A stretch of 64,000 bases of DNA, taken from the NCBI GenBank assembly GCA_030645475.1, contig JAUSMA010000069.1, positions 248,001-312,000 of the forward strand, given 5' to 3'. Positions within the stretch are counted from its first letter, which is position 1; every line of letters starts with the position of its first letter. The notes beneath the pieces were generated by a model, which was given only the letters and a program-made list of their open reading frames with translations, did no database searches and was not told the DNA's origin. Shown here one piece after another: positions 2,360 to 61,983 of this stretch. This stretch comes from Nitrospirota bacterium (lineage in GTDB: Bacteria; Nitrospirota; Nitrospiria; Nitrospirales; Nitrospiraceae). Made by a program: the position numbers and the translations under genes.

Positions 2360-2516
2360 CAGGATGCCGAAAAAGGCCGCCAGCCAGAAAACGCTGAGCG
2401 GTAAGTGATGAACGGTGAACGAAAAATGATGTTCACGTCAGCGTTCATCGTTCAGAGATCAAAGTTTAGTTGCTTACTCGCTGCGGCCTTGCTGGACGGA
2501 ATGTTTGAGCATTCTG
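2360..2516 (+). repeat. Stop-adjacent structured repeat, copy A (rearranged centre)
   Basis: The left end, CAGGATGCCGAAAAAG and following bases, and the right end, CTTGCTGGACGG then TTTGAGCATTCTG, match the 125-bp family seen at six other places in the window. In this 157-bp copy the centre is replaced by degenerate heptamers such as GCTGAGCG, GATGAACG and GTGAACG, followed by a partial inverted copy (CGTTCATCG). It starts 3 bp after the PCP_red stop. About 100 bp without recognisable content follow before the hairpin at 2626. Confidence 0.7.
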
Positions 2517-36795: not shown

Positions 36796-36920
36796 CAGGA
36801 TGCTGAAAAAGTCCGCCAGCATCGTTCTCGCCTCGAATGCATCCTCAACGTAGCCTGGGGCTACGCCTCCGGTGCGTTCGTCGGCTGCGGCCTTGCTGGA
36901 CGGCCATTTTGAGCATCCTG
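36796..36920 (+). repeat. Stop-adjacent structured repeat, copy B (full length)
   Basis: 125 bp. Ends CAGGATGCTGAAAA and TTTTGAGCATCCTG are inverted repeats; the centre holds CGTAGCC/GGCTACG with a 3-nt loop, preceded by TCCTCAA and followed by CCTCCGG. It begins 7 bp after the tal stop. Same family as copies at 2360, 38849, 45414, 50573, 55457 and 60289. Confidence 0.88.
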
Positions 36921-38848: not shown

Positions 38849-38905
38849 CAGGATGCTGAAAAGTCCGCTCGTCTGGAAACGCTGAACGGTGAGCGCTGAG
38901 CGATG
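38849..38905 (+). repeat. Stop-adjacent structured repeat, copy C (left half only)
   Basis: Starts CAGGATGCTGAAAAGTCCG 4 bp after the MltD stop, then passes into degenerate heptamers (CGCTGAACG, GTGAGCG, CTGAGCG, ATGAA). The right inverted end is missing, so this is a decayed or partial copy. Confidence 0.6.
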
Positions 38906-44910: not shown

Positions 44911-45413
44911 GAGAGCTACATTGCCCTATTTGCGGGGCCTCATTCGTCCGCGTGAGCTACCAGGAGGGTATGCTCGAGCGTCTCTTGGGCCGCGTGAATG
45001 TGTTCCCGTTTCGATGTCAACTCTGCACCAATCGGTTTCGTGCATATTATGCCGGTGCACGGTACAACACCCAGGCGTTCGATCGTCGGCAGTATACGCG
45101 CCTTCCGGCCTCCATCGAAGTGCAAGTGCTCGACAGCCATCAGTCGATGACCAACCGCATTACCGACATTTCGATGGATGGTTGCACCCTACAGACGACG
45201 GGATTCTCGAAGGGGGCCTTTGTCGAATTGCTCTTGAAGCCCACGGTGGAGGACGACGCGATTTATATCGAGACGGCGATGGTCTGTTCCGTTCACCCCT
45301 CCTCGACGGGCATCCGTTTCCTGGAGGTCCCGCCGGATCATTACCGCCGTCTGGGCCAGGTGGTGCTCGGGCTCTTAGTCGGTCAGGGTCTCGACCCCAT
45401 GCTCAACATCTAG
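44907..45413 (+). CDS. Zinc-ribbon/PilZ fusion protein (168 aa)
   Basis: An N-terminal zinc ribbon with CPICG (6-10) and CQLC (about 37-40), then a PilZ domain (about 65-160) with RQYTR (RxxxR) and DISMDGC (D-x-S-x-x-G), both c-di-GMP contact motifs. Start fixed by the ATGA overlap with the MazG-like gene. The zinc ribbon may recruit a partner; the output is unknown. A structured repeat begins at the base after its TAG. Confidence 0.82.
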   Translation: MRELHCPICGASFVRVSYQEGMLERLLGRVNVFPFRCQLCTNRFRAYYAGARYNTQAFDRRQYTRLPASIEVQVLDSHQSMTNRITDISMDGCTLQTTGFSKGAFVELLLKPTVEDDAIYIETAMVCSVHPSSTGIRFLEVPPDHYRRLGQVVLGLLVGQGLDPMLNI

Positions 45414-45537
45414 CAGGCTGTTGATAAAGGCGGCCAGCAGCGTTCTCGCGGCGCGCAGAGGCTCAACGTACTGTCGAGAGTGCGCTTCGCCTCTCCGCTT
45501 GCTGCGGCCTTGCTGGACGGCCTTTCTGAACAGCCTG
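45414..45537 (+). repeat. Stop-adjacent structured repeat, copy D (full length)
   Basis: 124 bp starting directly at the base after the stop TAG. Ends CAGGCTGTTGA and GAACAGCCTG pair; the centre CGTACT/AGTGCG (one G-U pair) is the least regular of the family. Right arm GCTGCGGCCTTGCTGGACGG is typical. Confidence 0.82.
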
Positions 45538-45614
45538 CGACGACGTCTGACAGCATCTGCAACTGTTCTGGTATGCGCATTTCTGCAGTGGCTCGGTAGT
45601 TTGTCAACAAACTA

Positions 45615-46484
45615 CTAGCGAGCGCGATTCTTTCCACCCGGCACGTTCACTGGCAGATTGTCGATCAAGCGGATCGATCCGATCCGAATGGCGCCCAACA
45701 TCACCGCACGATGAGTGACCCTGGTTAGAGGCTCCAGGCTGTCGGGGTCGCAGACGGCCAGGTACTCGACGTGAATGGCCGGTGCCTGTTCGACAGTCTT
45801 CCGCATGCTCCGTTCAATCGCCTCCCCATTCTTCATTCCTCCTTCGATGGCCTGTTTGCCTGCTCGAAGTGCCCGAGAGAGCCAGGGCGCGATCATCCGT
45901 TCTTCGGCGTTGAGATAAACGTTGCGTGAACTCATGGCCAGCCCATCCGCTTCTCTGACCGTCGGGCGTACCTCGATCGCCACACCGAGATTGAGGTCTT
46001 TCACCAGTTGTCGAACCAGTGTAGCCTGCTGATAGTCTTTCTGGCCGAACAGGGCGAGATGGGGACGGACCATTCCGAAGAGTTTCGTCACTACCGTGGC
46101 GACACCGGGAAAGTGATGGGGTCTGGCCTCGCCTTCCCATCGACGCGCAATCTCCGGCAGCGTCACGACCGTTTGAAAGCCTTCGGGATACATCACCTCG
46201 GCTGTCGGTTCGAAGCAGACGTCCACCCCTTCTTCGCGGCACAGCGCCCGATCCTTGGCAATCGGGCGAGGATAGCGCGTGAGGTCTTCGCGCGGGCCGA
46301 ACTGCGTCGGGTTCACAAAAATACTCACAACGAGCGCATCGCAACGGAGCCGTGCCGCTCGGATGAGCGCACGGTGGCCGTCATGCAACGCGCCCATCGT
46401 GGGAACGAATCCGATGATGACGCCGTCGCGGCGCAATCGTTCGCTCCAGGATGTCATGGAGCGGATGGTACGAATAATCTTCAT
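45615..46484 (-). CDS. panC: Pantothenate synthetase
   Basis: A 289-residue ATP-dependent ligase of pantoate and beta-alanine. The nucleotidyl-transferase motif VPTMGALHDGHRAL, IFVNPTQFGPREDL, PHHFPGVATVVTKL, GQKDYQQ and the KMSKS-like SSRNVYL are conserved. Start fixed by the ATGA overlap with folK, which coexpresses a pantothenate and a folate gene. Confidence 0.95.
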   Translation of the reverse strand: MKIIRTIRSMTSWSERLRRDGVIIGFVPTMGALHDGHRALIRAARLRCDALVVSIFVNPTQFGPREDLTRYPRPIAKDRALCREEGVDVCFEPTAEVMYPEGFQTVVTLPEIARRWEGEARPHHFPGVATVVTKLFGMVRPHLALFGQKDYQQATLVRQLVKDLNLGVAIEVRPTVREADGLAMSSRNVYLNAEERMIAPWLSRALRAGKQAIEGGMKNGEAIERSMRKTVEQAPAIHVEYLAVCDPDSLEPLTRVTHRAVMLGAIRIGSIRLIDNLPVNVPGGKNRAR

Positions 46485-47038
46485 GGACCTGGGGGCTGGC
46501 TGCATGCAGGGCGTGAACCATAACGGGTCGAGGGCTGGGGAAACAGGAGGCGGACTTCAGGCTGCTTCTCCGCCTCGGCAAGCAATTGGCTGATGGTACG
46601 TTGGCGCACCGGATGGATGAACAGAGGATCGAGTTCGCTCAAGGGCATGAGGACGAACCGGCGATGGTGCATGCGAGGATGCGGCACCACGAGATCCGGC
46701 TCATCGATCGTCTGCTGTCCGTAGAACAGGATGTCCAGATCGATCGTTCTGGGGCCGGATCGATGATCCTCGTCCCGTCCCAGCGCACGTTCGATCTCCC
46801 GGAGGATGTCGAGCAGGCTTTTCGGCGTGATATCCGTTTCAATCTGGACCACGCCGTTTAAGAACCACCCGTCCCCCGGCTGGGCATGATCATTCACGGG
46901 CTCCGTCTCGTAGAGCATCGACACGCCGAGGAGCTGTGAGTGCGGCAAGAGGCCCAGCAGGGTGACTGCCCGATCGCAGAAATCGAGCCGATCGCCGACA
47001 TTCGAGCCGAACCCGATGAACACCGTCTCGCGTCCCAT
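46481..47038 (-). CDS. folK: 6-Hydroxymethyl-7,8-dihydropterin pyrophosphokinase
   Basis: A 185-residue HPPK of folate synthesis. GFGSNVGDR, YETEPV, FLNGVVQIET, the catalytic GPRTIDLDILFYG and VPHPRMHHRRFVLMPL are present. A Pro/Ser-rich tail of about 25 residues extends past the usual end because it runs to the panC start. A GC-rich hairpin element lies 43 bp upstream. Confidence 0.95.
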   Translation of the reverse strand: MGRETVFIGFGSNVGDRLDFCDRAVTLLGLLPHSQLLGVSMLYETEPVNDHAQPGDGWFLNGVVQIETDITPKSLLDILREIERALGRDEDHRSGPRTIDLDILFYGQQTIDEPDLVVPHPRMHHRRFVLMPLSELDPLFIHPVRQRTISQLLAEAEKQPEVRLLFPQPSTRYGSRPACSQPPGP

Positions 47039-47081: not shown

Positions 47082-47177
47082 GACGAGGTGCCGGGGCGAG
47101 AGGCGACTGCGCGCGTCGAACGAGCATATTCTGATCGTGCGCGTTCCGCGAGCAAGCCCTCGCCTCGGCTTCACGTC
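47082..47177. repeat. GC-rich hairpin element, copy 1
   Basis: A 47-bp core (47108-47154; on the minus strand it starts TGCTCGCGGAACGCGC and ends CTCGTTCGACGCGCGCA) differs at only one base from the core at 61711-61757. Around it, outer arms GACG..GCCG..GGCGAG pair imperfectly with their partners to 47177. It lies between the dapL stop and the folK start. Confidence 0.75.
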
Positions 47178-47183
47178 CCCAGC

Positions 47184-48359
47184 CTAGAATCCTACTTTTC
47201 TAATCCGCTCCACCGCTTCTGCCAGCCGTTCTTTCGTCGTGCAAACGGTCATCCTGATATAACCTTCGCCCGGCGCTCCGAAGCCGTTGCCCGGTGTCGT
47301 CACGATCCCGGCCTTCTCCAGTAAATGAGCCGTAAAGGAGGCGGAGGTGTATCCCTTCGGCACCGTGACCCAGATATAAAATGCGGCCGGTGGTGGATCG
47401 ACTTCGAGGCCCAGGCTCTTCAGCCCAGGCACCAAGGTATCGCGCCGCTCCTGATAGATCTTCCGTAGGCCGTCCGTGACGGAATCATCCAATCCCAGCG
47501 CCGTGATTCCTGCGGCCTGCACCGCTTCGAACACGCCGGAGTCCAGCTGGCTCTTGACCTTGCCGAGGCCTGCCAAGACGTCTTTGTTGCCGACGACGAA
47601 GCCGATGCGCCAGCCCGTCATATTGTAGGTCTTCGAGAGCGAGTGGAACTCCACGCCGACGTCCTTGGCTCCGTCGATTTCCATGAAGCTGACAGGAGGT
47701 TTGCCGTCGTAATAAATTTCCGAGTAGGCCGCATCGTGGCAGACGATGACCTGGTTCTCCTGCGCAAACTCCACCACGCGCTTGAAGTAGTCCTTGGTCA
47801 TGATGACCGACGTGGGATTATTCGGCGAATTCAGCCACATCAGCTTGGCCCTTTTCGCCACATCCTTGGGGATCGCGTTCAAGTCAGGTAAAAAACCGTT
47901 GGCCTTCGTCAGCGGCATGAGGTGCGAGATGCCGCCGCAGAAGCCGGTACCGACCGGATAGACCGGATAGCCGGGGCTCGGGACCAGGACGATATCGCCC
48001 GGATCGACAAACGCCAAGTGAATGTGCCCGATTCCTTCCTTCGAGCCGATCAGGGTCAGCACTTCGTCGGCAGGGTTCAGCGTCACGTTGAACCGGCGCT
48101 TATACCAGTCGGCCACGGCTGTCCGGAACGACAGCATTCCTTCGTAGGAGGGATATTGATGGTGCTTGGGGTTTTTGGCAGCCAGGGCGAGGCTTTCGAT
48201 AATCGGAGTCGGTGTCGGCAAGTCCGGATCGCCGATGCCGAGGTTGATGATATCGACACCCTTAGCAATCGCCGCCTGCTTCATCTTGTCGATGGCGGCA
48301 AACAGATAGGGAGGCAGTGTTTTAATTCTGGTTGCGACTTCAATTGGAAAACCGGCCAT
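47184..48359 (-). CDS. dapL: LL-diaminopimelate aminotransferase
   Basis: A 391-residue class I/II PLP aminotransferase that converts tetrahydrodipicolinate directly to LL-diaminopimelate. INLGIGDPDLPTP, the Asn-containing LNSPNNPTS, CHDAAYSEIYYDG and the PLP Lys in HSLSKTYNMTGWRIGF match DapL-type enzymes. With dapA, dapB and lysA in this window it outlines the aminotransferase variant of lysine synthesis, which needs no dapC/D/E, only an epimerase (dapF, not seen here). Confidence 0.9.
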   Translation of the reverse strand: MAGFPIEVATRIKTLPPYLFAAIDKMKQAAIAKGVDIINLGIGDPDLPTPTPIIESLALAAKNPKHHQYPSYEGMLSFRTAVADWYKRRFNVTLNPADEVLTLIGSKEGIGHIHLAFVDPGDIVLVPSPGYPVYPVGTGFCGGISHLMPLTKANGFLPDLNAIPKDVAKRAKLMWLNSPNNPTSVIMTKDYFKRVVEFAQENQVIVCHDAAYSEIYYDGKPPVSFMEIDGAKDVGVEFHSLSKTYNMTGWRIGFVVGNKDVLAGLGKVKSQLDSGVFEAVQAAGITALGLDDSVTDGLRKIYQERRDTLVPGLKSLGLEVDPPPAAFYIWVTVPKGYTSASFTAHLLEKAGIVTTPGNGFGAPGEGYIRMTVCTTKERLAEAVERIRKVGF

Positions 48360-50572: not shown

Positions 50573-50697
50573 CAGGCTGCTGAAAATGCCCGCTAGCTTC
50601 GTTCTCGGTTCGCAACCATCCTCAACGTACCCCAAGGGTACGCCTCCGGTGTTTGCTCTCCTTGCGGCCTCGCTATCGGAGCATTTTGAGCAGCCTG
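50573..50697 (+). repeat. Stop-adjacent structured repeat, copy E (full length)
   Basis: 125 bp, starting 5 bp after the stop. Ends CAGGCTGCTGAAAA and TTTTGAGCAGCCTG are perfect inverted repeats; the centre CGTACCC/GGGTACG has a 3-nt loop. Relative to copy B both stems changed on both strands and still pair. Confidence 0.88.
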
Positions 50698-53278: not shown

Positions 53279-53623
53279 TCAAGCGTTATACAGACTCAGG
53301 AATACGTCGTATTCCGCAGGGAGATTCAGGCTGGAGCGGTTGCGGGCGAGGCCTGCGATGATGCCTCGGTGCTTTTTGCTGAGCCCGGACGCTTCGAACG
53401 CCTGGCGAAAGTGTTGCCAGCGAGCGGCAGCATCGGTGGCGAGGCGTTCTCGTTCATTCGGGGGCAACGCATGGACCGAAGTCGTGAGGGAGCGAATGGC
53501 TTTCTCGACGCTCTCATAGGGCGGTGCTAGTTTGAGCTGGGCATAGAATGTTTCGAGGTGATGACGAAACTCCTCACGAAGCGTCAGGGTATAATCGGCT
53601 GGGGTTGTGATAGGGTCAGTCAT
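53279..53623 (-). CDS. Hypothetical protein (114 aa)
   Basis: Start at MTDPITTPADYT. A small soluble helical protein with paired Arg/Glu segments (LREEFRHHLETFYAQLKL, LPPNERERLATDAAARWQHF). No family recognised. Convergent with the membrane protein gene. Confidence 0.55.
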   Translation of the reverse strand: MTDPITTPADYTLTLREEFRHHLETFYAQLKLAPPYESVEKAIRSLTTSVHALPPNERERLATDAAARWQHFRQAFEASGLSKKHRGIIAGLARNRSSLNLPAEYDVFLSLYNA

Positions 53624-55361: not shown

Positions 55362-55456
55362 GGTGTTGTGGTGTGAAACCTAAGAGGTTGCAAGGCATCT
55401 ATTTTGGCACACAGGAAACCCAATAGCATACAGGGCGACGATAGACGAATATTCCG

Positions 55457-55580
55457 CAGGATGCTCAAAAATTTCGTCCAGCAAGGCCGCAGTGAGTGAA
55501 GAGCCGAGGCGTACCTCCTGAGGTACGTTGAGGGTCTGAACGATGCGAGAACGCCGCTGGCGGACTTTTTCAGCATCCTG
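55457..55580 (-). repeat. Stop-adjacent structured repeat, copy F (full length)
   Basis: 124 bp. On the minus strand it follows the AttH-like stop with no gap. Ends CAGGATGCTGAAAA and TTTTGAGCATCCTG pair; centre CGTACCT/AGGTACG with a 4-nt loop. Right-hand GCGGCCTTGCTGGACG is typical of the family. Confidence 0.88.
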
Positions 55581-60288: not shown

Positions 60289-60413
60289 AAGGCTGCTCAA
60301 AAAGGCCGTCCAGCAAGGCTGCAGCCGATGAAAGCACCGGAGGCGTAGCCTCTGGCTACGTTGAGGATGCTTTCGAGGGGAGAACGCCGCTGGCGGACTT
60401 TTTCAGCAGCCTT
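60289..60413 (-). repeat. Stop-adjacent structured repeat, copy G (full length)
   Basis: 125 bp. On the minus strand it follows the TAG of the RNase Z-like gene with no gap. Ends AAGGCTGCTGAAAAA and TTTTTGAGCAGCCTT are perfect inverted repeats; centre CGTAGCC/GGCTACG. The terminal pair is A-T here where other copies have C-G. The preceding 70 bp after the SirB1 stop hold GTGAAACG-type short repeats. Confidence 0.88.
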
Positions 60414-61644: not shown

Positions 61645-61690
61645 GTTCTGAGGATAGTCCGCACTAGAACGGAGATTCAAGGGGGGAGGC

Positions 61691-61780
61691 GGGCAGCCTG
61701 GTCGTCCTCCTGCTCGCGGAACGCGCACGATCAGAATGTGCTCGTTCGACGCGCGCAATCGAGGATCGACCAGGCCGCCC
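61691..61780. repeat. GC-rich hairpin element, copy 2
   Basis: Core 61711-61757 is 46 of 47 identical to copy 1 (inverse strand). Outer arms read GGGCAGCCTGGTCG-TCCTC on the left and pair with GAGGATCGACCAGGCCGCCC on the right, a sequence unrelated to the outer arms of copies 1 and 3. It lies upstream of the MarR gene in a 500-bp gene-free spacer. Confidence 0.75.
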
Positions 61781-61890: not shown

Positions 61891-61983
61891 GATGGAGGCT
61901 GATGATCTTCTGTGCTCGCGCAACGCGCGGCCTGAGAAGGCCCTCGTTGAACGCGCGCAGTGGAAGATCGATCAGCCTCCATC
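61891..61983. repeat. GC-rich hairpin element, copy 3
   Basis: Core 61913-61959 keeps the flanks TGCTCGCG-AACGCGC and CTCGTT-AACGCGCGCA with a different 14-bp loop (GGCCTGAGAAGGCC, itself self-complementary). Outer arms GATGGAGGCTGATGATCTTC and GAAGATCGATCAGCCTCCATC pair with a 1-nt bulge. It starts exactly 200 bp after copy 2; between them TTTGGAGG and TAGAGCAG motifs also recur. 61984-62148 shows nothing further. Confidence 0.75.

Follow-up and report, generated by a model that had tools for sequence, protein, structure and literature searches.

A palindromic repeat dispersed through Nitrospiraceae genomes is very probably an IS5-type MITE with an unusual structured arm

The 64,000-nucleotide stretch of a Nitrospirota genome analysed here (hereafter called the window) contains a non-coding palindromic sequence at 36796-36920 that recurs elsewhere in the same stretch, which raises the question of whether it is a mobile element or a structure used by its host. 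The initial annotation described a structured repeat family with seven copies that share their ends, several sequence blocks and a central hairpin, one of them (2360) with a replaced centre and another (38849) consisting of a left end alone, and an alignment of the window copies confirmed this description and the positions. The match between copies is far above chance, as illustrated by positions 36797-36919, which are 90% complementary to 60290-60412 over 123 nt. A covariance model built from 33 copies (R1) matched six of the seven window copies, with E-values from 5e-30 to 6e-6, and the degraded left-end copy at 38849 gave no match in the window scan. As had been claimed, no transposase is present within the element. 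The copies in the window, and the short duplications that flank one of them, are the following:

2360..2516, plus strand: copy with both ends kept and a replaced centre, found by alignment (R1 match 2356-2520, 40.5 bits, E 5.6e-6)
36796..36920, plus strand: 125-bp palindromic copy without a recognisable tail (R1 147.3 bits), beginning 7 nt past a stop codon (gene end 36788)
38849..~38985 (right limit approximate), plus strand: left-end fragment fused to another hairpin repeat, found by alignment and beginning 4 nt past a stop codon (gene end 38844)
45410..45413, plus strand: left CTAG copy of the target duplication, containing the TAG stop of the gene ending at 45413
45414..45614, plus strand: complete 201-bp unit (R1 match)
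45615..45618, minus strand: right CTAG copy of the target duplication, containing the stop of the convergent gene 45615-46505
50573..50697, plus strand: 125-bp palindromic copy with CTAG just before it (R1 121.3 bits)
55384..55580, minus strand: palindrome (55457-55580) with a degraded tail (55384-55456), flanked by ATAG and TTAG, its start directly abutting the TAG stop of a minus-strand gene
60290..60413, minus strand: palindromic copy whose start abuts the TAG stop of a minus-strand gene (R1 150.9 bits)

In the copy at 2360 a AACGCTGA...TCAGCGTT hairpin takes the place of the usual core. This copy, the fragment at 38849 and the copies at L065:15745, L071:5483 and L100:821 are mosaics, showing recombination of the left end with repeats of other kinds, and the hybrid copies L100:821-949, L096:901-1030 and L081:901-1028 consist of the left half joined to another repeat (GCGTCTTGGCGCACCGGGGTTGGGCGGGTGAGAAG), followed by a TTTGAGCATCC end. 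A feature that the initial annotation did not mention is that the left ends of the window copies lie 0-8 nt past the stop codon of a gene, with a constant orientation relative to that gene.

The initial annotation had proposed a covariance-model scan. When the source genome (3.75 Mb in 71 contigs) was scanned in this way, at least 150 copies were found, all 150 scored candidates matching the model. Extrapolating from the 6-7 copies per 64-kb window, we estimate that the true number is around 250-400. The repeat was found in all 19 same-genus genomes scanned, with 52 to at least 108 matches each. In a phylum-wide sample, it was present in all 23 genomes of the Nitrospiraceae, and 2-4 strong matches each occurred in two genomes from a different family of the order, while only two of the remaining Nitrospirota genomes gave any match, so that the rest of the phylum almost lacks the repeat. 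The earlier belief that similar sequences are common in Nitrospira was therefore correct, their range spanning the Nitrospiraceae. In the papers searched, no published description of such repeats in Nitrospira was found, and Rfam 15, used at the gathering score, matched only a tRNA in the window and not the repeat.

Within the 125-bp part, CAGG[A/C]TGCTGAAAAAG pairs with CTTTTTGAGCA[T/G]CCTG except at a single conserved G.G mismatch, making an imperfect palindrome that also contains an inner hairpin (CGTAGCC...GGCTACG). The left flank of the copies is [CT]TA[AG] (YTAR), and this motif is enriched even away from stop codons (16 of the 54 copies in those classes). A 125-bp unit with a target duplication at its own edges was considered and rejected, as the right flank has no YTAR and does not match the left flank. 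Since there was no duplication at the palindrome edge, we searched further to the right, where many copies proved to carry a weakly conserved tail of ~76 bp that ends with AGTTTTTCCGCAGCCTG and is followed by CTAG or a similar sequence. Complete copies are ~200 bp and run from YTAR and CAGG[A/C]TGCTGAAAAAG at the left to AGTTTTTCCGCAGCCTG and YTAR at the right. The unit length given in the initial annotation thus holds for the palindromic part but not for the whole element, which has a further ~76-bp tail with a terminal repeat. Allowing up to 5 mismatches, 31 of 145 copies carry the right end AGTTTTTCCGCAGCCTG at a constant distance, compared to ~2.4 expected from control stretches. When a whole-unit HMM was used (consensus of 209 positions, flanks included, containing no transposase gene), the right limits of the matches formed two peaks, one at the palindrome edge (positions 120-139, 66 matches) and one at the tail end (47 of 166 matches), and only a minority of copies retain the tail. 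Judged from sequence identity, the tail-bearing copies are probably the younger ones, because their closest relatives are more similar (median nearest identity 0.909 versus 0.880). Agreement between their two flanks was only moderate, which counts against the transposon reading: it was exact in 5 cases versus 2.8 after shuffling (p 0.12), and extended to three of the four bases in 17 cases versus 11.9 (p 0.012). We also observed a subfamily of ~200 bp that keeps the palindrome ends but has a larger centre and is itself repeated across three genomes (G009, G012 and G038), with copies at L065:15745-15944, L066:3073-3272, L071:5483-5702, L149:17367-17564 and L145:5121-5318.

The clearest insertion lies in the window itself. 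Here, a unit of 201 bp (45414-45614), comprising a left end CAGGCTGTTGATAAAG, a palindrome (45414-45538), a tail and a right end TAGTTTGTTGACAAAC (reading inward), is cleanly inserted between two copies of CTAG, and two close relatives, G038 (L121) and G009 (L123), lack an insertion at this site. At the empty site in G038, two convergent genes overlap by 11 bp (L121 9893-9903); from reading the sequence rather than from a family search, we take these to be a PilZ-like gene and panC. In the window, each of the two genes stops within its own CTAG copy, and the end of panC is shortened by about one residue; the duplication has thus split two overlapping convergent genes and provided each with a separate stop codon. 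The reverse case is a second unit flanked on either side by TTAG, which L121 and L123 carry at the position corresponding to window 49203, whereas the window lacks it. The YTAR duplication of 4 bp is clean at these two sites, its genome-wide statistic being only moderate, and changes in flanks and spacers make other insertion sites less clean. Single sites suggest that the 125-bp form may have moved too, and a comparison of L123:10641 with G016 revealed a 125-bp copy bounded by CTAG and CTAA.

Sister genomes contain transposases of the PF05598 (DUF772) type, located inside elements of ~1.3 kb whose ends (CAGGCTGCGGAAAAAC, CAGGCTGTTGACAAAC or CAGGTTGTTGAAAAAG) adjoin CTAG. From a scan of one genome per species across 84,980 species, the best 80 relatives were kept. 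Among these 80, most of those tested have the ends CAGG[A/C/T]TG..GAAAAAC, and many are flanked by identical 4-bp sequences, namely CTAG, TTAG, CTAA or TTAA. Insertion sequences of ~1.3 kb with these ends and identical YTAR flanks thus occur in Nitrospira and in other phyla; for the closest related ones, most public records come from Nitrospira, including Nitrospira defluvii. Two of the three transposases tested passed the NCBIfam cut-off for the IS5 family, and the third (L165) resembles both IS5 and IS1182 models while scoring below both cut-offs. The terminal inverted repeats of our element match the IS5-family ends, with CAGG[A/C]TGCTGAAAA at the left and CAGGCTGCGGAAAAACT at the right, and since the YTAR target matches as well, the ends of the repeat are those of this IS5 group. 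E. coli IS5 also duplicates a Py-T-A-Pu target, most often CTAG (PMC5493358; PMC10359306). As judged from the terminal sequences, the similarity between the repeat and the insertion sequence did not extend further inward than ~20 bp.

A search of the source genome for a cognate DDE_Tnp_1 or DUF772 transposase found none (no PF05598, PF01609 or L161-like protein); 12 of 61 relatives have such a transposase. No evident candidate for an autonomous element was found between widely spaced ends in the DNA stretches examined. A missing cognate transposase is common for decaying MITE families, and its absence, although it counts against mobility in this genome at present, was therefore not taken to exclude a MITE. 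What we found thus largely corresponds to the alternative named in the initial annotation, a MITE for which a cognate transposase exists: the ends and the 4-bp target match those of intact IS5-type elements in sister genomes, the exception being the source genome, which has no such transposase. The preferred reading there, a structured repeat family, was right in that the repeat is dispersed, structured and non-coding, but was incomplete, having missed the transposon ends and the tail.

Taken together, the repeat is very probably a non-autonomous IS5-type MITE of ~200 bp, and we consider it a new, large MITE family with an unusual structured arm and a possible side role at mRNA 3' ends. In this unit, the left inverted repeat CAGG[A/C]TGCTGAAAAAG doubles as the outer strand of the 125-bp imperfect palindrome, and is followed by the ~76-bp tail and the right inverted repeat CAGGCTGCGGAAAAACT (reading inward). 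Both ends would be bound by an IS5-family transposase supplied by separate insertion sequences, which are found in some Nitrospira and not in the source genome, and the unit would be inserted at a 4-bp YTAR, duplicating the target. Because the source genome lacks such transposases, we infer mobilisation in trans, perhaps by transient or past insertion sequences. With age, copies would shed the tail and the duplication first, leaving the 125-bp palindrome. A large MITE that spans the whole family is thereby described for the main nitrite oxidisers, along with its likely insertion-sequence partner.

How, then, is the placement at stop codons to be explained? According to a simple purpose-made gene finder, 50 of 147 copies begin at the very next base after a stop codon on their own strand, and the rest of the same-strand cases mostly begin within 16 nt of one. 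As YTAR often includes a TAG or TAA stop, a gene hit at such a target would survive the insertion, and many surviving copies would then abut stop codons. This offers a simple reason for mobile elements to pile up at stop codons, and it partly explains why about one third of the copies directly follow one. However, among 981 YTAR sites in the DNA examined that are either intergenic or at a stop codon, 176 (18%, in either orientation) are at stop codons, so the target accounts for the placement only in part, and an excess and an orientation bias remain. In tail-bearing copies, the left end is at a stop in 8 of 31 cases and the right end in 1. Gene starts are found 10-19 nt past the left end and 81-112 nt past the palindrome on the right, distances that fit a 200-bp unit inserted into very short intergenic gaps. 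The post-stop position also led us to consider integron attC sites, an option that was dropped in view of the singly dispersed copies and the IS5-type ends.

The constant orientation after stop codons could also reflect use by the host, in which case the transcribed palindrome would fold into a long stem at the 3' end of the mRNA that terminates or protects the transcript and is kept by selection. Strong covariation between copies agrees with this, the score being 0.222 versus 0.084 for shuffled and ~0.035 for slid pairs (in an alignment fitted to the model); in a MAFFT alignment, double changes occur in 16 of 38 pairs. Comparison of orthologous copies gave a different picture. Among 17 low-divergence ortholog pairs selected by tail identity, a small sample, 3 compensatory changes were outnumbered by 29 that break pairing and 11 that produce wobble pairs, which speaks against an RNA selected by the host. 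Divergence at these sites was 4.5% for paired positions, 7.8% for unpaired positions and 9.6% for the tail, the somewhat slower change of paired positions being in favour of host use. It thus seems that the elements maintain pairing while they propagate but not at the sites they have landed in, and a weak host constraint may act in addition. Moreover, the gene-pair classes flanking the copies look ordinary, 21 of 147 copies are flanked by divergently transcribed genes, a position that calls for no terminator, and there is no Rfam match. Considering all this, a host-selected RNA hairpin is an unlikely explanation.

The double changes themselves are mainly transversions (63%) with few wobble intermediates, a pattern that also argues against selection on RNA pairing and suggests either a constraint at the DNA level or copying. 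One arm may have been copied onto the other, by quasipalindrome correction or by conversion between copies, so that the covariation would not stem from selection for pairing. This concerns the structure alone and is compatible with the MITE reading. It would also suit certain orthologous sites where the gene flanks and the tail are conserved but the palindrome belongs to a different subfamily, an indication of conversion from one copy to another. However, nearly every copy has kept the internal G.G mismatch and the asymmetric loops, both of which unselective copying should have erased, so that we regard arm copying as a tentative option with the odds against it. A comparison of L065:2697-4171 with L182, L183 and L187 showed many double changes in the palindrome between conserved gene flanks, suggesting replacement or conversion among dispersed copies. 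Even strong covariation of base pairs is no proof of a functional RNA when the sequences compared are dispersed repeats.

At the same gene ends in other species, unrelated hairpins were found, among them TGGTCTAT-type octamer repeats, AGTCGAAAGTC, GTGAAACGTGAAGCG and a short stem (CCGCAGGATAGCC), an observation that would favour host use of hairpins at these positions. These gene ends may be either insertion hot spots or places for interchangeable 3'-end signals. In the latter case, the MITE and unrelated repeats would swap after stop codons and serve Nitrospira gene ends as 3' ends or read-through barriers; we consider this doubtful, but if true, transposons would supply termination signals to the host. 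At L124, L126, L131-L133, L137 and L140, which are orthologous to window positions 53280, 55581 and 60414, species-specific hairpins of short direct repeats (TGGTCTATCTGGTCTGTTCGG...) follow the stop codons. A second palindromic repeat family (TGCTCGCGCAACGCGCGGCCTGAGAAGGCCCTCGTT.GACGCGCGCAGT) occurs in the window at 47090-47191, 61674-61775 and 61912-61961, and in many relatives (L121-L123, L127, L138) with up to 98% identity.

Among known systems, REP/BIME elements with their RAYT transposases are likewise extragenic palindromes of high copy number. An element of this kind, moved by a Y1 transposase that recognises a single-stranded hairpin, would also account for the conserved stem mismatch. 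However, the ends of the Nitrospira element are of the DDE type, its target duplication is 4 bp long, and PF01797 had no match in the source genome in a search that was positive in 5 of 14 control genomes, which largely refutes this reading and makes it highly improbable. Closer to the MITE are the IS5-family elements of Nitrospira (for example L191 in Nitrospira defluvii FP929003.1, L193, L194, L161 and L163), which share the ends CAGGCTGCGGAAAAAC and the YTAR duplication, but are ~1.3 kb long and carry a transposase gene, and in whose end sequences the palindrome and tail were not recognised. MITEPsy1 of Pseudomonas syringae, a miniature element thought to be derived from ISPsy2, is similarly small and non-coding, with inverted ends containing CTGAAAAAG, a CTAG or YTAA target and a 4-bp duplication (PMC3189936). 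It is 100 nt long with 18-nt ends, in contrast to the ~200-bp Nitrospira unit with its 125-bp palindromic arm, its tail and different outermost bases. ERIC and QMITE2 resemble our element in being strongly folded intergenic MITEs of high copy number; 3' untranslated regions are the main location of QMITE2, and an ERIC copy at the end of a gene can alter transcript levels (PMC10969869). Going by their descriptions, both are set apart by other ends and other hosts, and QMITE2 by direct repeats of 7-9 bp (PMC10969869).
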